64,000 bases of DNA. It comes from Synechococcus sp. A18-25c (GTDB lineage: Bacteria > Cyanobacteriota > Cyanobacteriia > PCC-6307 > Cyanobiaceae). A program made the position numbers and the translations under genes. Positions 4,350 to 15,168 of the stretch are shown here, one piece after another. The stretch is taken from positions 1,178,001-1,242,000 of the forward strand of contig NZ_CP047957.1 in assembly GCF_014280035.1 (NCBI RefSeq), written 5' to 3'. Below the pieces are notes generated by a model. The model was not told the DNA's origin and searched no databases. It was given only the letters and a program-made list of their open reading frames with translations. Position 1 is the first letter of the stretch. The number at the start of each line of letters is the position of its first letter.

Positions 4350-5249
4350 ATGCCGACACGAGAACGTCGGGCCGTTGCCCTGCTGGCTGTTTTGCTTTGC
4401 CAAGGGGTAACGGTCCTTCCCGTGGTTGCTCAACCCACTCTCAAGGTGGGAGCCATCCCTGATCAAAACCCCGAGCGTCTGAATCGTCTGTATGGCCAGC
4501 TGGCCGATGAGCTGAGCGAACGCCTCGACGTCAAGGTGCGTTACGTGCCCGTCAGCAACTACCCGGCGGCCGTGAGTGCCTTCCGCAGCGGTGGTTTGGA
4601 CCTGGCCTGGTTCGGAGGCCTTACCGGCGTGCAGGCGCGTCTGCAGACACCCGGCGCTCAGGTGCTGGCCCAGCGCGACATCGACGCCCGTTTCCGAAGT
4701 GTTTTCATCGCCAACACCAATTCTGGTCTGCAGCCCATCACCTCCATCAATGGCCTGACCAGCCTGCGCGGCAAGCGTTTCTCTTTTGGTTCGGAGAGTT
4801 CCACCTCAGGCCGGCTGATGCCGCAACATTTTTTGGCCAAAGTGGGGGTGACCCCCAGTCAGTTCAGTGGTGGCCGGGCTGGATTCAGCGGCAGTCACGA
4901 CGCCACCATCGCCGTGGTGCAGAGCGGTGCCTATGAAGCTGGCGCCCTCAATGAGCAGGTGTGGACCTCGGCGGTGAACGACGGCCGGGTCAACACCGAG
5001 AAGGTGGAGGTGATCTGGCGCACCCCGGAATACGTCGATTACCACTGGGTGGTGCGTCCCAATCTGGACCAAAGTTTTGGGGCTGGCTTCACCGGTCGCC
5101 TGCGTCAGGCGATCCTGGCGATTCAACCCACCACGCCCCGCCAAACCACGATCTTGGAGCTCTTCGCCGCCAAGCGTTTCATCCCTGCGGAGGCCAGCCA
5201 GTACGAACCGATCGAACGGGTGGGCCGCGAACTGGGCAAGATCCGGTGA
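4350..5249 (+). CDS. PhnD-like substrate-binding protein of an oxyanion ABC importer (phosphonate/selenate type)
   Basis: A 299-residue periplasmic binding protein with a signal peptide (cleavage likely after VVA, about residue 27). The start KVGAIPDQNPERLNRLYG and the later FRSGGLDLAWFGG match the PhnD-like family, whose members bind phosphonate, phosphite or, in one branch, putatively selenate. The ligand cannot be decided by eye. The GTG of the ATPase gene overlaps its stop, and the permease follows, so this is the first gene of a three-gene importer operon. Confidence 0.85.
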   Translation: MPTRERRAVALLAVLLCQGVTVLPVVAQPTLKVGAIPDQNPERLNRLYGQLADELSERLDVKVRYVPVSNYPAAVSAFRSGGLDLAWFGGLTGVQARLQTPGAQVLAQRDIDARFRSVFIANTNSGLQPITSINGLTSLRGKRFSFGSESSTSGRLMPQHFLAKVGVTPSQFSGGRAGFSGSHDATIAVVQSGAYEAGALNEQVWTSAVNDGRVNTEKVEVIWRTPEYVDYHWVVRPNLDQSFGAGFTGRLRQAILAIQPTTPRQTTILELFAAKRFIPAEASQYEPIERVGRELGKIR

Positions 5250-6004
5250 CATCGCTTTTGGAGCTGGAGCAGGTTCAGCTCGCCGGACCCCACGGGGATC
5301 GGCTGAGGTCCCTGTCTCTCCAGCTCCAGGCTGGAGACCGGGTCGCCCTGCTCGGTCGCAGTGGTGCGGGCAAGAGTTCCCTGCTAGCCGTGATCAACGG
5401 CAGCCTGAGGCCTCAGACCGGTCAGGTGCGCTTCAGGGGAGTGCCGTTGCCAAGTCTGACCCGTCGCCAACGGGCTGAGATCGGCACGCTCTGGCAGGAC
5501 CTGCGTCTGATCGATGAACTCAGCATTGGTCAGAACGTCAACGCCGGTGCCTTGGCACGTCATCGCCTGGGCTGGGCTCTGGCCAATCTGCTGTTTCGAA
5601 TTGGCACCGATGCCAGCCGTCACTGCCTGCGGCAGGCCGGACTGGAGGAGGCTCTGCTGGGGGATCAGGCCCTGGATCGTCCTGTGCGGCAGCTCTCGGG
5701 TGGTCAACGTCAACGGGTGGCGTTGGCACGTCTGTTCCGCCAACAGCCGGCGTTGATGCTCGCGGATGAACCATTGGCCAGCCTGGATCCGGCCATTGCC
5801 GCTGAAGTGCTTGAACGGTTGCTGGCGTGCGACCTGGATGGAGGGCTGTGCAGCGGCGCTGAGGCCGTCGTGGTGTCGTTGCATCGCCCTGAGCTGATCG
5901 ACCGGTTTGATCGTGTGCTCGGACTCCGCGATGGAGCCCTTGTGATCGATGCATCGGCCGCGATGGTGTCGACCGAAGACCTCAAAGCCCTGTACGCCTC
6001 ATGA
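5246..6004 (+). CDS. ABC transporter ATP-binding protein (PhnC-like)
   Basis: The GTG start at 5246 overlaps the stop of the binding-protein gene (GTGA); longer in-frame starts upstream lie wholly inside that gene. The product has 252 residues with Walker A GRSGAGKSS, signature LSGGQRQR, Walker B LMLADEP and a D-loop ASLDP; the switch histidine is in VVSLHRPE. This is the energy-coupling subunit of the phosphonate/selenate-type importer, acting at the inner face of the plasma membrane. Its stop overlaps the permease ATG (ATGA). Confidence 0.92.
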   Translation: MTSLLELEQVQLAGPHGDRLRSLSLQLQAGDRVALLGRSGAGKSSLLAVINGSLRPQTGQVRFRGVPLPSLTRRQRAEIGTLWQDLRLIDELSIGQNVNAGALARHRLGWALANLLFRIGTDASRHCLRQAGLEEALLGDQALDRPVRQLSGGQRQRVALARLFRQQPALMLADEPLASLDPAIAAEVLERLLACDLDGGLCSGAEAVVVSLHRPELIDRFDRVLGLRDGALVIDASAAMVSTEDLKALYAS

Positions 6005-7530
6005 TCCGGGCGCTTCGGCCGACGGCCCCGGCCCTGGCCCTGTTGCCGGCTCTGGCACTGGTTCCGGTGCTGATCGTTGTGCTTCAGGCCGTTCATGGCG
6101 GCGGTGGCGAGATCTGGGCAGCCTTCTTGATCGGTGCCGTCCGGCCCTCCCTGGATCCAGTCCTGATTGGGTCCTTGCTTAGGGCACTGCAGGTGACCTT
6201 GGCCACGGCGCTCACAGGCTGGGGCTGCAGTCTGCTGATCGGCGTGGTTCTGGGGTGCTTGAGTTCAGAGCGTCTCTGGCTCACGTTCCGCTGGCCGGGC
6301 TTGCCAGCAGTGCTGTTAAGGCGGCTCCTGGCATTGCCGCGTTCGGTGCATGAACTGATCTGGGGGTTGCTGCTGCTGCAGGTGTTTGGACTGCATCCCT
6401 GGGTGGCCGTCGCAGCGATCACCATTCCCTATGCCGCCCTCGTGGCGCGCGTCTGGCGTGATCAGTTGCAGAGCCTGGATTCTTCCAAACTGGAGGCTCT
6501 GCTTCAGGCTGGTGCGTCGCCACTCTCGGCCTGTTTCACCGCCTTTGCTCCGGCCATGGGTGGCGTGTTGATGAGCTACGGCGGCTACCGGTTGGAGTGT
6601 GCCCTGCGCAGCGCCACGCTGCTGGGGGTGTTTGGTCTTGGTGGACTCGGAACCGATCTTGAGCTCAGTCTCAAATCACTGCGTTTTCACGAGCTCTGGA
6701 CGGGGCTCTGGCTGCTGGCCCTGGTGAGCATTGCCCTCGAGCAGGGATTGCGCCTGTGGCGACTGCACAGCGGTCAGGCGCGATTGGCGCAGCGGCAGGT
6801 GCTGGGTTTTGTTGCGCTGGTGTTGATGGCTGTGATGGTCGGTGGCCTCTGGTTGGCGCACCTGTTCCCTGAGGCCGGCCCTCTCCTCTGGATGCCGGTG
6901 ATCTGGCCGGATGGCCGCGCTCTGCTGGAGGCCGCGCAGGAGCTGCCTTGGATGCCGATGATCTGGGAAACGCTGTTGCTCACCGTGCTGGCGGCCGGTA
7001 TCGCCATCGGTTTGCCGCCGCTGGTGCTGCTGCTGTCGACCAGTCGGCTGTGGCGGTCTTGCCTGGGGGCGCTCTGGAGTCTTCTGCGCTTGATCCCACC
7101 GCCGCTCACTGTGCTGCTTCTGCTGCTGAGCAACCGCCCGACGCTGGCCATCGGTGCCCTGGCCCTGGGCCTGCACAACGCCGGGGTGATGGGGCGATTG
7201 CTGCAGGAGGGATTGGATCAGCAGGACGATGCCGCTCGCATCGCCATGCGCAGCAGCGGTGCATCAACACGGGTCAGTTGGCTGTATGGCGTGCTCAGCC
7301 CACGCAGTCCGTCCCACCTCGCCTACGGGGCCTATCGCAGTGATGTGATCCTGCGCGAAACCGTCGTGGTTGGTCTCATCGGTGGCAGTGGACTGGGATG
7401 GCAGCTGCTCGAGTCGCTCAGCTCCTTCCATTGGGCTGCCGTCTTACTGCTGCTGGTCAGTTACGCCCTGATCACCCTGTTCGGTGAAGTGCTCAGTGAT
7501 GGTTCCCGGCAGCACTGGCTGCAAAGCTGA
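6001..7530 (+). CDS. Fused two-domain ABC permease (PhnE-like)
   Basis: A 509-residue membrane protein with about 12 hydrophobic segments arranged as two similar halves (roughly 1-265 and 270-509). Each half has its own permease-like coupling region (LLQAGASPLSACF in the first; MRSSGASTRVSWLYG in the second). Canonical PhnE has about 260-280 residues and dimerises, so this looks like a duplication and fusion supplying both halves in one chain. It completes the importer with the two preceding genes. The substrate is unresolved. Confidence 0.85.
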   Translation: MIRALRPTAPALALLPALALVPVLIVVLQAVHGGGGEIWAAFLIGAVRPSLDPVLIGSLLRALQVTLATALTGWGCSLLIGVVLGCLSSERLWLTFRWPGLPAVLLRRLLALPRSVHELIWGLLLLQVFGLHPWVAVAAITIPYAALVARVWRDQLQSLDSSKLEALLQAGASPLSACFTAFAPAMGGVLMSYGGYRLECALRSATLLGVFGLGGLGTDLELSLKSLRFHELWTGLWLLALVSIALEQGLRLWRLHSGQARLAQRQVLGFVALVLMAVMVGGLWLAHLFPEAGPLLWMPVIWPDGRALLEAAQELPWMPMIWETLLLTVLAAGIAIGLPPLVLLLSTSRLWRSCLGALWSLLRLIPPPLTVLLLLLSNRPTLAIGALALGLHNAGVMGRLLQEGLDQQDDAARIAMRSSGASTRVSWLYGVLSPRSPSHLAYGAYRSDVILRETVVVGLIGGSGLGWQLLESLSSFHWAAVLLLLVSYALITLFGEVLSDGSRQHWLQS

Positions 7531-8992: not shown

Positions 8993-9225
8993 GGTGCAAC
9001 GTTGGCGGCGGCCAGGCGTTCTTCGCAGGCCCGTTCGTAACTGGTCACAGCGCTGGCAGGGATGGAACCGTTGCTCTTCAGCTGCCGGACGGACAGCTCC
9101 ACGCATTGGAGAACAACGCTGGTGAGTTCGCGCCCCTCACATTGAGCCCAGCTGCGCAGCAGCACGTGCAGGCTCGGGGGGACCGAAACCGTCAGCTTCA
9201 CCTGGTTTTCCCGCGCAGGGGCCAT
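8989..9225 (-). CDS. Small ribbon-helix-helix-like protein
   Basis: Seventy-eight residues. The beginning, VKLTVSVPPSLHVLLRSWAQCEGRELTSVVLQCVE, has the beta-strand/helix/helix pattern of CopG/Arc-type DNA-binding proteins (family judgement by pattern only). The C-terminal 30 residues form a short helical tail. It is co-transcribed with the following 148-residue gene through a 4-bp overlap. Antitoxins and plasmid regulators often look like this, but so do other cyanobacterial small regulators. Confidence 0.6.
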   Translation of the reverse strand: MAPARENQVKLTVSVPPSLHVLLRSWAQCEGRELTSVVLQCVELSVRQLKSNGSIPASAVTSYERACEERLAAANVAP

Positions 9226-9360
9226 TCGGAGCGTTTGCTGTCGGATCGAATCTAGCTTGAAGTGTCTTTAAAGTCACTGTGCAGTATCTGGTGGGTTACT
9301 GCGCGGTTGCTTCACGGTGATTGGGTTGGATTTGTGCTGCACTGTTCGCGGTGTCCGTCA

Positions 9361-9984
9361 TCAGCGCCTCCAGGTGATCATGCGGTTGTTGGCGGGGAGC
9401 AGGGCGATCTCGCACAGCGTCAGACCCACGGTCGTTGCGTGCTCGATCACGGTCGTTTGGTCCCGCACGCCCCAACGGGAGTCGCGTTGCTGCAACGACG
9501 AGTCGAAACTGCGGTTGCTCTCGCTGACGTGGGCGCCATCCACGCAGAAAGGTCCGTACACGCTGAGGGTGTTGCCTGGTTGCAGCAGCTCTGCGGCGTT
9601 CTTCAGCAGCGCAAGGGTGCACTCCCAGGGAGCGATGTGCAGCAGGTTGATGCACACGATGGCCTGGGGTGCAGCGCTCAGGTGCTGCCGCCAGTGGTCG
9701 TCACGCACGTCGAGGGCCAGTGCAGCTGGCATCGTGTCGTTGAGCCCCTCATGGCGGATCCAGCTGTTAATGCTGCGGCAGTGCTCTGGATCGGGGTCAC
9801 TGCATTGCCAGGTCAGCGCGGGAAAGCGCTGCTGAAAGGTCACGCCATGCTCCCCCGAGCCGCTGGCCAGTTCCAGCACTAACCCCTGGCTGGGCAAGTG
9901 GCGTTCCAGTGCGTCTCCGATGGGAATGCGGTTGCGCTGCGTGGCGGGAAACAGCAAGCGTTGGTCGGCGGCTCCGCCTTTCAT
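9361..9984 (-). CDS. DUF938 SAM-dependent methyltransferase
   Basis: A 207-residue protein of the DUF938 class: FPATQRNRIPIGDAL at the N-terminus, SAM-binding motif I VLELASGSGEHG, and CINLLHIAPWE, then VYGPFCVDG. It begins only 3 bp after the arsR stop, so it almost certainly shares the arsR transcript. Its acceptor substrate is unknown. It is not an ArsM-type arsenite methyltransferase: the typical ArsM cysteines are absent and the motifs differ. A role in arsenic metabolism is suggested only by position. Confidence 0.85.
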   Translation of the reverse strand: MKGGAADQRLLFPATQRNRIPIGDALERHLPSQGLVLELASGSGEHGVTFQQRFPALTWQCSDPDPEHCRSINSWIRHEGLNDTMPAALALDVRDDHWRQHLSAAPQAIVCINLLHIAPWECTLALLKNAAELLQPGNTLSVYGPFCVDGAHVSESNRSFDSSLQQRDSRWGVRDQTTVIEHATTVGLTLCEIALLPANNRMITWRR

Positions 9985-9987
9985 CGT

Positions 9988-10320
9988 TCAGTCGTCACAG
10001 CAGCTGCTGCGTCTTTGGCAGCTGTCGGTGAGTCCTTGCAGCCACTGCTGCAGCGCTTTCAGGGCTTCCGGACGGAGCCGGTAATAGACCCAGCGACCGC
10101 TTTGGCGATCACTGATCAGGCCAGCTTCTCTGAGCACCTTGAGGTGAAAGGAGAGTCGCGACTGGGACAGCTGCAGGTTGGTGGTGAGATCGCAGACGCA
10201 GCGCTCGCCAGCACCCAGCTGCTCAATCACGTTCAGCCGGATCGGGTCCGACAGCCCCTTGAGCATGCCTTGGGCCTGGTGGGCATCCAGTTGCGAAGCA
10301 GTTTCCACCGTCGTTGACAT
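9988..10320 (-). CDS. arsR: ArsR/SmtB-family arsenic-responsive repressor
   Basis: A 110-residue winged-helix repressor. The helix-turn-helix is LSQSRLSFHLKVLREAGLI (about 51-69), followed by the wing RQSGRWVYYRL. Cys41 and Cys43 (ERCVCDL) sit where As(III) is sensed in classical ArsR; three further cysteines (101, 107, 108) lie at the C-terminus. The gene is between mscS and the DUF938 gene on the same strand and opposite the gap-arsJ pair. Two boxes matching the cyanobacterial ArsR site lie in the divergent region upstream of mscS and gap. Confidence 0.93.
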   Translation of the reverse strand: MSTTVETASQLDAHQAQGMLKGLSDPIRLNVIEQLGAGERCVCDLTTNLQLSQSRLSFHLKVLREAGLISDRQSGRWVYYRLRPEALKALQQWLQGLTDSCQRRSSCCDD

Positions 10321-10378
10321 GGTCTGTGCTCTGTCAGGTTTCAGCCTAGAGGTGCTGTGCTGGGGCGATGCTCAATGC

Positions 10379-11404
10379 TCAGGAGGCTTGGTTTGCCCCT
10401 GAATCGCTCTCCAGGTAAACGGTCTGGCTTGGGAAGGCGAATTCGATTCCTTGCTGCGCGAACACTTCCATGATGGCCAGGTTGATCGCCTGCTGATTGT
10501 TCAAGGCGACGGTGTAATCACGCGTGTCGATGTAATAGGCCAGCTCGAAATTCAGGCTTGAGTCGGCGAATTCCGTGAAGTGACAACGGCCGAAGCTGCT
10601 GTGCTCCTGCCGGTCGATGATCTCCTGGATCATTGAGGGAATCGCTTTCATCTGCTCCACGGTGGTGTCGTAGGTGACGCCGATGGAATAGAGCATCCGC
10701 CGTTGGGTCATCTCGGCGAAGTTTTGAATTGTGTTTCCCGTGAGTGTGGTGTTGTTGACCACCACCAGCTCGCCGCGGGTGCTGCGCAGATGGGTGGAAC
10801 GCACGCCGATTTTCTCCACCGTGGCCGACGTTGACCCCGTGCTGATGAACTGCCCGACGGTGAAGGGTTTGTCGAGCAGGATCATCAGGTAGGCGAACAG
10901 CTCCTGCGCCGGTTCTTTGAGAGCCAAGCCAATGCCGATGCCGCCGGCGCTAAGCAGGCCCCAGACCACCGTCATTTTCACCCCCAGGCTCTGAAGAAGC
11001 ACCAGGATGCCCACACTCCACACCAGGGCTCTCAGCAGCGGCAGCAGGCTTTTCAGCAGTTGCTGAAGGTCTTCCCCGCCGGTGCGTCGCGCGGCGCTGG
11101 TCAGAAAGCGTGCACCCACCCGATTGGTGAAGCGCACCAGCACAATCGTGATCAGGGCGCGCAGGGCGATGGCATAGGCCGTCTTGATGTTGCTGGGAAG
11201 GTTGAGATCAATTTCTGTGAGCACCAGCACAGTGATCAGCCCGATCGGAATCACGGCATCCCCCAGGGCATTGATCAGGAAGTCATCAAAATCGCTGCTG
11301 GTTTTCTGCGTCAGCTTGGGAAGCACGCGCCGCAGTAGGTACGACAGCACCAGGGTGATTGCTGCGCCACCAAAGACCGTCCAGAGGAGATGACCCAGGT
11401 TCAT
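10379..11404 (-). CDS. MscS-family mechanosensitive ion channel
   Basis: A 341-residue small-conductance channel protein. There are about four to five hydrophobic segments in residues 5-175, the pore-lining helix being the Gly/Ala-rich LLSAGGIGIGLALKEPAQEL. A beta domain (DKPFTVGQFIS) and the cytoplasmic alpha/beta domain follow. It releases solutes when membrane tension rises (family knowledge). It is the first gene of the leftward unit mscS-arsR-DUF938 (59 bp and 3 bp gaps), and its upstream region carries the ArsR boxes, so it is probably arsenic-regulated here. Confidence 0.92.
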   Translation of the reverse strand: MNLGHLLWTVFGGAAITLVLSYLLRRVLPKLTQKTSSDFDDFLINALGDAVIPIGLITVLVLTEIDLNLPSNIKTAYAIALRALITIVLVRFTNRVGARFLTSAARRTGGEDLQQLLKSLLPLLRALVWSVGILVLLQSLGVKMTVVWGLLSAGGIGIGLALKEPAQELFAYLMILLDKPFTVGQFISTGSTSATVEKIGVRSTHLRSTRGELVVVNNTTLTGNTIQNFAEMTQRRMLYSIGVTYDTTVEQMKAIPSMIQEIIDRQEHSSFGRCHFTEFADSSLNFELAYYIDTRDYTVALNNQQAINLAIMEVFAQQGIEFAFPSQTVYLESDSGANQAS

Positions 11405-11467
11405 TGGCGATGCTGCCTATCTGAAAAAAGTCTGCAGCGCTGTGCCGACGCTTGCAAGAGAACTTGC

Positions 11468-11501
11468 ATCAAGTCTGGTTGATCAATCAAGATTGGTTGA
11501 T
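11468..11501. promoter_or_regulatory. Tandem ArsR operator (two ATCAA-N6-TTGAT boxes)
   Basis: Two perfect copies of the inverted repeat ATCAA-N6-TTGAT, at 11468-11483 and 11486-11501, in the divergent region between mscS (start 11404) and gap (start 11531). This pattern is described for ArsR/SmtB-type arsenic repressors in cyanobacteria. Box centres are 18 bp apart, close to two helical turns. The right-hand box ends 29 bp before the gap start codon, so bound repressor would block its transcription; the same sites could govern mscS-arsR. Confidence 0.8.
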
Positions 11502-11530
11502 CTATGGGGCCGTCGGCCCGACTGATCACC

Positions 11531-12553
11531 ATGCGTATCGGCATCAATGGCTTTGGCCGCATCGGCCGCCTGGTGCTTCGGGCCCTCTGGGGGCGGCCTG
11601 GAATCGAGCTGGTGCACGTCAATGATCCCGCTGGCGATGCAGTGACAGCGGCCCACCTGCTCGAGTTCGATTCCGTGCATGGGCGCTGGAATCGAGCCAT
11701 CACCAGCAGCGCTGATGGCTTCAACGTGGAGGGATCAGCGCTCACTTGGTCGAGCGAAAGCGATCCCACCGCTGTGCCCTGGATCGATCGTGGGGTGGAG
11801 ATGGTGCTCGAGGCCAGCGGCGTGATCAAAACGCCGCAGACCCTAAACCCCTATTTCGAGCAGGTGGGTTTGAAGCGTGTGGTGGTGGCCTGTCCCGTGA
11901 AGGGTGTGGTCGCCGGTGAGGACGCGCTCAACATTGTCTACGGCATCAACCAAAACCTTTATGAACCAGCGCGGCACAAGTTGGTGACCGCTGCCTCCTG
12001 CACCACCAACTGCCTGGCGCCGGTGGTGAAGGTGGTGCATGAGAGCTTCGGCATCGACCACGGCCTGATCACAACCATTCACGACATCACCAACACCCAG
12101 GTGCCGATCGATGCCTTCAAAAGCGATCTGCGTCGGGCCCGTTCTGGCCTCAGCTCGTTGATCCCCACCACCACCGGCTCGGCCAAGGCGATCGCGATGA
12201 TCTTCCCTGAGCTGAAGGGCAAGCTCAACGGTCATGCCGTGCGCGTTCCTCTGCTGAATGGATCGCTCACCGATGCGGTGTTCGAGCTCAAGCAGAGCGT
12301 CACGGCAGAGCAGGTGAACGCAGCGTTCAAGGCCGCGGCAGACGGTCCGCTCAAGGGAATCCTGGGCTATGAGGAGCGCCCGTTGGTGTCGTGTGACTAC
12401 ACCAACGACAACCGCAGCGCGGTCGTTGACGCCCTCTCGACAATGGTGGTGGACGGCACCCAGCTGAAGGTCTACGCCTGGTATGACAACGAGTGGGGCT
12501 ACAGCAGCCGCATGGCCGATCTGGTGGCCCATGTGGTGGGGCTGGAGTCATGA
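11531..12553 (+). CDS. gap: ArsJ-associated glyceraldehyde-3-phosphate dehydrogenase
   Basis: A 340-residue GAPDH: NAD-binding [15 protein letters not shown], catalytic Cys157 in ASCTTNC, and C-terminal [12 protein letters not shown]. The ATG at 11531 is chosen because the upstream in-frame start lies in the operator. Its stop overlaps arsJ (ATGA). In ars loci this enzyme uses arsenate in place of phosphate to make 1-arseno-3-phosphoglycerate, which ArsJ exports and which then falls apart to arsenate (known pathway). This is therefore probably a dedicated detoxification paralogue, not the Calvin-cycle or glycolytic enzyme. Confidence 0.93.
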
Positions 12554-13821
12554 AGCTCTCTCCCCTTCAGCAGTACGGCATCGTCACCGCCAACTACTGG
12601 GCCTTCACGCTGACCGATGGAGCGCTGCGAATGCTGGTGGTGTTCCATTTCCATCAACTCGGCTACTCCACCCTCGAGATTGCGTTTCTGTTCCTCTTCT
12701 ACGAATTGTTCGGGGTGATCACCAACCTCTACGGGGGATGGATTGGGGCCCGCTACGGGCTTCGGCTCACCCTCTGGGTGGGCACGCTGCTGCAGGTCCT
12801 GGCATTGCTGATGCTGATCCCTGTCGCCGCCAGTTGGCCGAAACTGATCAGCGTGCTCTATGTGATGACCGCTCAGGCCATCAGCGGAATCGCCAAAGAC
12901 CTCAACAAGATGAGTGCGAAGAGCGCCATCAAGACGGTGGTGCCGGAGACCCCGGACGATCAGCAGCAGGGGCAGAAGCAATTATTCAAGTGGGTGGCAA
13001 TCCTCACGGGATCCAAGAACGCTCTCAAGGGAGTGGGTTTCTTCCTCGGAGGGGTGCTGCTGACAGCCTTTGGCTTCAATGCTGCCGTGGGCTGGATGGC
13101 AGCAGGTCTCGCTCTCGCCTTCCTGCTGACGCTGGTGCTCACGGGAGAGATCGGAAAGATGAAGTCCAAGCCGGCCTTCTCCTCGCTGTTCTCGAAATCC
13201 CGGGGCATCAACGTGCTGTCTCTGGCGCGCTTCTTTCTGTTTGGTGCCCGGGATGTGTGGTTTGTGGTGGCCTTGCCGGTGTTTCTCGAGGCTTCCTTGG
13301 GCTGGAGCTTCGGGGAGATCGGTGGCTTTCTCGGCCTCTGGGTGATCGGCTACGGCATTGTTCAAGGATCAGCGCCTGGTCTCAGACGTCTGTGGGGGCA
13401 GACCACCTCTCCGGGAGTGTCTGCCTTGCAGTTCTGGAGCGTACTGCTCACCGCGATTCCCGCTTTGATCGCTGTGGCGCTGTGGCGTCAGGTGGATGTG
13501 TCGCTGGCCATCACGGCTGGCCTCGCCGCCTTCGGAGTGGTGTTCGCCATGAATTCGTCGATTCACTCCTACATGGTGTTGGCCTACACCGATACGGAGA
13601 ACGTCAGCCTCAATGTGGGCTTCTATTACATGGCCAATGCTGCCGGGCGCCTGGCGGGCACGTTGCTCTCGGGGGCGGTGTTCATGCTTGGTAGAACCGA
13701 AGTCGTGGGCATGCAGGCCTGTCTCTGGGCTTCATCCTTGCTGTTGTTGTTGTCGGCACTGACATGTCGGGAGTTGCCGAGGATTCACCCCATCGGCCTC
13801 AATTCGGCGTCAGCAACCTGA
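12550..13821 (+). CDS. arsJ: Organoarsenical efflux MFS transporter ArsJ
   Basis: A 423-residue major-facilitator protein with about 11-12 hydrophobic segments. The start [20 protein letters not shown] and the segment [18 protein letters not shown] are typical of ArsJ. The overlap with an arsenic-type gap gene supports the call strongly. It exports 1-arseno-3-phosphoglycerate across the plasma membrane. The ATG at 12550 overlaps the gap stop; another long reading frame in this stretch is only a GC-driven shadow. Expression should be released from ArsR when arsenic is present. Confidence 0.93.
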
Positions 13822-13931
13822 TGCCTGCTTGATTCTTGTTGTGGCACCGTCTCCAACTGGCTTTGGAAGCCTTGTGAGCTGCTCGGCCATGCGCCACTGT
13901 GAAATGGCTGGTTGGGTTTGAATCTTGAGTC

Positions 13932-14582
13932 ATGGTGGGCTCCGCAGCTGATGCTCTCAATTGGGTGATCAGTTTTGACGCGATGCGGGTTCGCCGTGAA
14001 GTGGACCAGTTGCGTGCTCGCTTTCCAGCCGCCAGCAGCCATGAACTGGCTGAGCAGGCGTTTAGTGACGCAAGACTTCAAGTGATTGCTGCCGGTGCCG
14101 TCATGGGGTTGGCGGCCAACCCCGTACTGAGCCTTGCGGGTGCCGTGGCCGATCTCTCTGTGACCACCCGCACGCAGGTGTTTGCAGCCGCCTGCGCTGC
14201 GGAGTTGATCCTTCCCGGCTTCCTGGACCGTGACTCGGCTCGGCTCGAGTTGCTGGTGCCTGTGTTTGGCACCAGTGTGCTCAGTCAGCTTGGTGTGGAA
14301 GTCGGATTGCGGATGGCTCAAAGTGCCACCCGTCAGGTGGTTCGACAGTTGATCGACCAGGGAGGTCTTCAGTTGATCAATGCAGTGGTGACCAGGGTGT
14401 TTGGTCGGCGGGTCACCCAGAGAGCGCTACTCACCAAAACGGTCCCGCTGGTGGGTTGCGTGATCGGCGGTACCTGGAATGCCATCGAAGTGCGGATGAT
14501 CCGCAACCGGACGCTTCGCTATCTCTCCGATCAGGCCATGGACAGCATTGAACTGGTGGACGTGCAGGTGGTTCAAGCTTGA
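13932..14582 (+). CDS. EcsC-like / DUF697-like membrane-associated protein
   Basis: A 216-residue protein with Ala/Gly-rich hydrophobic stretches (about 50-85 and 170-190). The C-terminal segment PLVGCVIGGTWNAIEVRMI resembles the glycine-rich signature seen in EcsC-type proteins, and the middle resembles DUF697. The assignment is tentative and no function can be given. Its 3' end overlaps the first possible start of the thermonuclease-like pseudogene. Confidence 0.6.
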   Translation: MVGSAADALNWVISFDAMRVRREVDQLRARFPAASSHELAEQAFSDARLQVIAAGAVMGLAANPVLSLAGAVADLSVTTRTQVFAAACAAELILPGFLDRDSARLELLVPVFGTSVLSQLGVEVGLRMAQSATRQVVRQLIDQGGLQLINAVVTRVFGRRVTQRALLTKTVPLVGCVIGGTWNAIEVRMIRNRTLRYLSDQAMDSIELVDVQVVQA

Positions 14583-15168
14583 TGCCACTGCCAAAGCCAA
14601 AGCCAAGGCCACGTTCTGTTTGGACGCTTTGACGTCACTCTCGATCCCCAGACTGCTGCTGAGCGGGGCCATCCTCAGCGCAACCCTTAGTGCAACTCTC
14701 AGTTCAGCAGCCTGGGCTGAGCCCCATCCGCGTCAAGCCGTCATGGTTCTGGCAATCAACAATGGTCAGGGGGTACTCGTCGACCTTGGTGATCAGGGGC
14801 GTGCGGTGCGTTTGGCGTGTGTTCAAGCGCCACTGGCTCAGCAGCAGCCGTGGTCTCGCTTGGCGATCCAGCAGTTGCAACGTCTGCTTCCTGTAGGCAG
14901 CGAGGTCGTCTTGGAATTGCGCGCCAGGGATGTGTACGGCCGTCTGGTGGCCCGTTTGCTCATGCAGGACAACGATGTTGCTCAGCCTTTGCTCCTTCAA
15001 GGAGTCGTCTTCGCCTAAGACGGCTATTTCGGCCGTTGTGATGACCTTCCCTATGTCGCTCTGGAAGCTCAGGCCCAGAACGCGTCCCCTGGAATCTGGG
15101 GAGTGTAGGGAGGTTTGGAACGTCCTTGGGATCTGATTGAAGCCGCGGGCGGCATGCTGACGCCCTGA
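14548..15168 (+). pseudogene. Thermonuclease (SNase)-like gene with two in-frame stops
   Basis: The frame encodes a signal peptide (about residues 30-56), then an SNase-like domain with VRLACVQAP and DVYGRLVARLL. It meets a TAA at 15016-15018, but the same frame continues with recognisable family sequence (DGYFGRCDDLPYVALEAQAQ, then SPGIWGV), meets TAG at 15106-15108, and continues again with GGLERPWD before TGA at 15166. Related proteins carry an aromatic residue at the first stop and end in a Gly-rich/PWD stretch. The nuclease Asp and Glu after the first Arg are also replaced (VQAPL instead of DAPE). The open part is 156 residues. The start is uncertain: an ATG at 14548 overlaps the previous gene, and a TTG at 14620 is possible. 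Confidence 0.75.

Follow-up and report, generated by a model that had tools for sequence, protein, structure and literature searches.

Why would a small mechanosensitive channel gene (mscS) and a DUF938 methyltransferase-like gene stand in the regulator unit of an arsenate-export locus? The question is raised by Synechococcus sp. A18-25c, in a stretch of 64,000 nucleotides (contig NZ_CP047957.1, positions 1,178,001 to 1,242,000; hereafter the window) in which a leftward unit, in the order mscS, arsR, DUF938, and a rightward unit of gap3 and arsJ diverge from a region with two predicted ArsR boxes. We consider it likely that this is an ordinary ArsR/gap3/arsJ arsenate-resistance cassette beside a resident DUF938 gene, with a lineage-variable MscS channel gene in the arsR unit; an arsenic function of mscS, as a channel relieving the cell of small solutes or anions, or of DUF938 is hypothetical. 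Family models scoring above their cut-offs confirmed the five genes with the strands and order given in the original prediction:

9361..9984, minus strand: DUF938, methyltransferase-like, 207 aa (PF06080, 209.9 bits, cut-off 27, E = 4.5e-62)
9988..10320, minus strand: arsR, ArsR/SmtB repressor with a CVC motif and a C-terminal cysteine (NF033788, 96.7 bits, cut-off 55)
10379..11404, minus strand: mscS, MscS/YnaI-type small mechanosensitive channel, 341 aa (PF00924, 52.6 bits, and PF21082, 49 bits; cut-offs 20.2 and 21)
11531..12553, plus strand: gap3, ArsJ-associated glyceraldehyde-3-phosphate dehydrogenase, GAPDH (NF033735, 547.3 bits, cut-off 450)
12550..13821, plus strand: arsJ, major facilitator superfamily (MFS) exporter of the arsenate/1-arseno-3-phosphoglycerate route (NF033734, 568.7 bits, cut-off 400)

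The adjacent gap3 and arsJ, which overlap by 4 bp, both pass the curated models of the ArsJ route and so can be equated with the known arsenate route, as had been proposed. This arsJ is the only ArsJ match in the 2.51-Mb genome, in which a profile search found no match to Acr3; none of arsC, acr3, arsH and varH was recognised among the genes from DUF938 to arsJ, and no genome-wide search was made for arsC, arsB or arsM. The ArsR cysteines Cys41 and Cys43, which form the CVC motif, and Cys108 are present in all 40 aligned ArsR sequences, and Cys101 in 36 of the 40. Between arsR and DUF938 lie 3 bp, the distance first reported, and between mscS and arsR 58 bp rather than the 59 bp reported; across loci, gap lengths were taken from the nearest start codon, and small negative gaps (to -106) are effects of start choice. 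The mscS protein carries the MscS beta and C-terminal domains, both above cut-off, and its best solved relative in a PDB search is YnaI of E. coli (E = 2.2e-23); it scores below the NCBIfam MscS cut-offs of the E. coli and Helicobacter type (83.8 against 400 and 82.7 against 321 bits). Viral contigs held no close mscS relatives.

The argument for joint control starts from the region between the two units, in which an inverted-repeat operator is predicted from the sequence pattern in front of the controlled genes:

11468..11483, no strand assigned: ArsR box 1, ATCAAGTCTGGTTGAT, exact ATCAA-N6-TTGAT
11486..11501, no strand assigned: ArsR box 2, ATCAAGATTGGTTGAT, exact ATCAA-N6-TTGAT, just upstream of a -10-like TATGG (by eye), on the gap3 side

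These tandem boxes, whose starts are 18 bp apart, are the sole two in the window, where the pattern, picked after the sequence had been seen, has a mean expected count of 0.02; two boxes occurred in none of 100 shuffles. Genome-wide the pattern has 10 places and forms a tandem pair only at 11468-11501. The open reading frame list starts gap3 at 11504, but the ATG there lies 2 bp behind box 2, and the family N-terminus begins at 11531. For comparison we used the window's own genus (g1, 31 genomes) and a second marine Synechococcus genus (g5, 34 genomes), all 65 among 400 Cyanobiaceae genomes. Outside g1 and g5, gap3 has the box upstream at all 30 of the loci L002-L031, which belong to other Cyanobiaceae genera and are the best ArsJ places in a draw of 121 Cyanobiaceae genomes. 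Where arsR directly precedes DUF938, the scan upstream of gap3 took in 31 of 32 loci (L093 was left out) and found at least one exact box, one or two each, in 28; the remaining three (L121-L123) have a one-mismatch box, read by eye. No box was found within 260 bp upstream of DUF938 in any of 13 loci that do not have arsR (12 of g1 or g5 and one of g19). The claim that both divergent units share one control region with two predicted ArsR boxes is supported by these patterns.

Behind mscS, through arsR and DUF938, there is no further box, and a scan of 9200-14000 placed no terminator-like site between the leftward genes on their own strand; its four terminator-like sites, all on the plus strand, compare with 4.0 expected, and its sigma-70 consensus promoters, in a weak test, numbered 0 against 0.9 expected. 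With no further box, no terminator-like site on the strand and a gap of 3 bp, the five genes can be expected to be induced together; their control by ArsR is likely, with the co-transcription and control of mscS and DUF938 predicted from the sequence. Bound to the tandem boxes, ArsR would repress both divergent units, and a trivalent arsenical, the presumed inducer, would release it by binding at the CVC cysteines. Gap3 would then make 1-arseno-3-phosphoglycerate, and ArsJ would export either this compound or free arsenate. DUF938, a resident of its chromosomal site with the ars cassette directly upstream, would depend on the arsR transcript because a separate promoter would hardly fit into the 3-bp gap. 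The lineage-variable mscS, a relative of the mscS found behind DUF938 in g5, would be transcribed first after the operators, with arsR and DUF938 behind it.

How far this arrangement is conserved depends on the lineage. The 32 loci in which arsR is directly followed by DUF938 comprise 12 of g1 and 20 of g5, and mscS belongs to that unit in 24. An mscS of the window's kind (at least 53% identity) occurs in 35 of the 400 Cyanobiaceae genomes, 6 of g1 and 29 of g5; in 29 of these 29 g5 genomes it directly follows DUF938 (37-89 bp), and arsR stands directly before DUF938 in 20 of them, giving the order arsR-DUF938-mscS. The window's order, mscS-arsR-DUF938, is found in four g1 genomes (G000, G204, G222 and G317). 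Two others of g1, G034 and G295, have a different mscS; the copy in G034 is unlinked to arsJ, and G295 is without an ArsJ match. At two g5-type layouts the export genes appear decayed: in G186 (L104) gap3 and arsJ look broken, with pieces in different frames, and in G285 (L093) a 67-aa piece of gap3 is all that remains at the DUF938 site; both retain arsR-DUF938-mscS.

The DUF938 site has the same kinds of neighbours with and without ars genes: c5, an SNase-like gene, a GSIII glutamine synthetase gene (in many g1 genomes) and, in g5, genes that we take from their sequences to be purS- and purQ-like. The SNase-like neighbour is also present in the window:

14548..15018, plus strand: SNase-like protein, a frequent neighbour of the DUF938 site in relatives with and without ars genes

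Beyond the two genera the association fades. The draw of 121 Cyanobiaceae genomes has ArsJ above cut-off in 94 and DUF938 in 99; the distance from DUF938 to an ArsJ match is 5 kb or less in eight (G000, G004, G061, G112, G059, G111, G118 and G096, where the ArsJ piece is 83 residues long), which represent four of the 59 genera drawn. Among the matches listed, an mscS match lies within 5 kb of ArsJ in four of the 121 (G000, G004, G061 and G112). These distances, and those in the phylum-wide draw described next, were read by eye from place lists, in which different contigs hide adjacency. A phylum-wide draw of 319 genomes included 27 from outside Cyanobiaceae with DUF938 and an ArsJ above cut-off; 0 of these 27 show the two genes on a shared contig at a distance of up to 10 kb, and annotated mscS or DUF938 genes within 4-5 kb were found at 0 of 11 plasmid arsJ loci (from 66 records, with incomplete gene tables). 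We therefore reject a general linkage of arsJ to mscS or DUF938, which is rare in Cyanobiaceae and was not seen in the other two samples; the expectation that these neighbours would be conserved at other arsJ loci holds within g1 and g5 but is not supported as a general rule. In three further Cyanobiaceae genomes (G013, contig C38; G026, C8; G057, C26), pieces or remnants of DUF938 lie about 5 kb from an mscS relative, so DUF938 and mscS may have been neighbours before the link to ars genes arose.

To the question of how the five genes came together, trees give different answers gene by gene. All were quick-method trees, with rows dropped below 120 aa in the first trees and below 200, 85 and 250 aa in the gap3, arsR and arsJ trees; trees for approximately unbiased (AU) tests had a length floor of 150, or 350 for arsJ, and also went without G314, in the DUF938 tree G319, in the arsJ tree G186, G169, G279b, G285b and G317b, and the outlying genera G118, G059, G111, G096, G086, G018 and G099. 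The window's DUF938 falls with g1: the AU test rejects a tree that unites g5 with the four mscS-bearing g1 rows (p-AU 2e-6) but does not reject one in which all g1 sequences form a single clade (p-AU 0.45). Its arsR likewise groups with g1 rows (support 84). The mscS genes of G000, G204, G222 and G317 make up a clade (100) within a broader one that joins them to g5 (98), with the mscS copies of G034 and G295 standing apart; the placement of the four within g5 has a Shimodaira-Hasegawa-like approximate likelihood ratio support of 97. In arsJ and gap3, G000 and G204 fall among g5 rows, and G222 and G317 fall among g1 rows, with weak gap3 support. Because kinship differs in this way, the locus is probably a mosaic of native DUF938 and arsR, a g5-like mscS and, in the window, a g5-like gap3-arsJ pair. 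That all five genes travelled together as a single cassette is rejected by the same mixed kinship, part of which is not firm. In three g5 genomes that have no ars genes at the site (L035, L102 and L106), the mscS genes sit together on a long stem branch (0.54-0.61), which may reflect altered constraint once the cassette had been lost.

Several observations weigh against an ordinary cassette beside a resident DUF938 gene. For mscS, g5 alone as a clade has p-AU 0.067, so it is not firm that the four g1 genes nest inside g5; the g5 placement of arsJ is subject to the same doubt, a single clade of g1 type-A arsJ having p-AU 0.094. The cassette may have been inserted at DUF938, or it may be ancestral there and lost elsewhere. 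In L124 (G169) and L135 (a second copy of G279), arsR-gap3-arsJ stands elsewhere, with no DUF938 in the stretch seen. DUF938 lies 39-66 bp behind arsJ on the same strand in two of three genomes of a third genus (G059 and G111; not G087), an arrangement suggesting that DUF938 is not just a passive neighbour. The 58-bp gap between mscS and arsR may hold a promoter of arsR's own.

What the cassette reading leaves open is split between two accounts of mscS and DUF938, of which hitchhiking into the regulon is weighed about twice as heavily as function. The first, to which we give slightly less than an even chance, is that the ars cassette landed by DUF938 and that mscS was carried along by recombination among marine Synechococcus, neither mattering for arsenic. 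DUF938 indeed retains its site where ars genes are missing, the DUF938-mscS pair is present in every g5 genome with the window's kind of mscS, arsR or not, and the five genes are of mixed ancestry. Yet mscS still lies inside the arsR unit after the gene order has changed, and DUF938 directly follows arsR in all 32 loci despite exchanged gap3 and arsJ alleles; both observations count against pure hitchhiking.

The second account, which we regard as unlikely, gives mscS and DUF938 a real part in the arsenate response, the channel letting out an anion or solute built up in arsenolysis, much as the aquaglyceroporin AqpS serves for arsenite in Sinorhizobium, and DUF938 methylating or repairing a glycolytic intermediate damaged by arsenate. 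It draws on the two different slots that mscS takes in the arsR unit of two genera, on the confinement of g5-like mscS in g1 to ars units (4 of 4) and on DUF938 standing at another place in an ArsR-box operon in G059 and G111. Channels of the MIP family belong to some ars operons (PMC4435449), and on a Calothrix plasmid a MIP gene (L115, 6488-7120) adjoins one flank of gap-arsJ and a phosphate-binding-protein gene the opposite flank. Against it, and against any dedicated arsenic role, mscS is missing from 8 of the 12 g1 arsR-DUF938 loci, DUF938 keeps its chromosomal site where there are no ars genes, DUF938-mscS occurs with neither arsR nor an ArsR box in 9 of the 29 g5 loci, and DUF938 is near ArsJ in so few of the genera and other Cyanobacteriota sampled. 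More doubtful still is its specific form, in which the MscS/YnaI-type channel would be an ArsR-controlled accessory of gap3/ArsJ that vents an anion or solute when GAPDH uses arsenate, with DUF938 methylating a damaged or arsenylated C3 intermediate. If true, the channel or DUF938 would be a further kind of ArsJ partner, besides the VarH phosphatase (PMC9601151) and an algal phosphoglycerate kinase (PGK)-like protein (PMC7826186).

A narrower proposal, that DUF938 modifies an arsenical in the manner of ArsM, can be judged from the protein. The sequence matches PF06080 strongly and generic methyltransferase models below their cut-offs; an AlphaFold2 model built from 11 sequences (mean predicted local distance difference test score 78.3, residues 1-19 poor) resembled many small-molecule methyltransferases with tied scores. 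DUF938 is, by this model, a short class I S-adenosylmethionine (SAM)-dependent methyltransferase-like protein, for which we claim no substrate because the fold matches were general and tied. ArsM requires several conserved As(III)-binding cysteines. That DUF938 is an ArsM-type arsenic methyltransferase, for which a SAM-binding fold and a position adjoining arsR would speak, is highly improbable, given the single near-invariant cysteine column (Cys122, in 45 of 49 rows; Cys111 in 31 and another in 15) and no match to arsenic-methyltransferase models in profile searches; the original prediction that DUF938 modifies an arsenical is, in this form, disfavoured. PDB sequences yielded no match for DUF938, and no paper using the name was found in a search short of most subscription papers; we presume METTL26 to be a human relative, for which a literature look-up had no result. 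On five plasmids DUF938 had no common neighbour, and viral contigs held two distant loci each for DUF938 and ArsJ.

Other gap3-arsJ loci in related Synechococcus take one of two layouts, with arsR and an ArsR box or with neither, beside pstS- and Crp/PtrA-like genes. Six loci of this second kind, without an ArsR box (L036 in g5; L039, L040, L042, L128 and L131 in g1), have pstS-, Crp- and response-regulator-like genes and a porin as neighbours, and five of the six carry a CTTTAACC-type stretch that we take to be like a Pho box; box-bearing L030 matches it too. Neither arsR nor a box lies upstream of gap3 in L101, L109 and L133. In G291 and G285, a gap3-arsJ pair close to the window's kind is accompanied by pstS- and Crp-like genes, and in Leptolyngbya a PstS gene precedes gap-arsJ. 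The window itself has a PhnDCE-like ATP-binding cassette transporter at 4350-7530, ending about 1.8 kb from DUF938, whose binding protein scores above the cut-off of a putative selenate substrate-binding protein model (TIGR04553) and whose ATPase and permease are nearest PhnC and PhnE, both under cut-offs. The permease gene keeps its place in G204, G222, G317, G193, G239 and G246; the transporter might let oxyanions in, next to the route by which arsenate would leave.

Finally, we compared the locus with known systems. A literature search short of most subscription papers found nothing joining arsJ, mechanosensitive and cyanobacteria, and the available parts of PMC10119275 and PMC5111396 held nothing bearing on this locus. 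A survey of about 2,500 strains, in its accessible parts, names no MscS among ars-operon transporters and counts 8 hypothetical membrane transporters (PMC4435449). The window's mscS shares the beta and C-terminal domains of E. coli MscS and YnaI but lies far under the NCBIfam MscS cut-offs. Francisella philomiragia ATCC 25017 has mscS near a truncated arsB-arsC, another case of a mechanosensitive channel gene close to ars genes; the gene list of that stretch, as available, is without arsR, gap and arsJ, and no regulation is shown there (PMC3479022). In Sinorhizobium meliloti the aquaglyceroporin AqpS passes arsenite within an ars operon (PMC6205960, PMC4435449); both loci have a passive channel, but AqpS replaces the pump whereas the window's MscS stands beside it. 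Prochlorococcus, a related picocyanobacterium, shares the gene kinds arsR, GAPDH (gap1) and MFS (mfs), which stand there with phosphorus-acquisition genes (PMC10504305) where the window has DUF938 and mscS instead.

Also close are the gapdh-arsJ arsenate export pairs of Pseudomonas aeruginosa DK2 (Chen 2016, via PMC7826186 and PMC6205960) and of the Vibrio cholerae var operon (PMC9601151). Chen 2016, via the same two papers, proposed that ArsJ exports the organoarsenical; export of free arsenate has been proposed instead, and the substrate is disputed (PMC9601151). The algal PGK-like partner of ArsJ was found through gene neighbourhood (PMC7826186). The window adds two further candidates, conserved over 32 and 24 marine Synechococcus loci, with natural states plus and minus mscS that make the question testable; if the DUF938 transcript is arsenic-responsive, this would be the first condition in which to seek a DUF938 function. 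Like the known pairs, the window has gap3 and arsJ of the curated models under predicted arsR control; unlike them, its regulator unit has mscS and DUF938, and arsC, acr3, arsH and varH were not recognised from DUF938 to arsJ. On this evidence, the layout is a variant of the known ArsJ system and not a new system.

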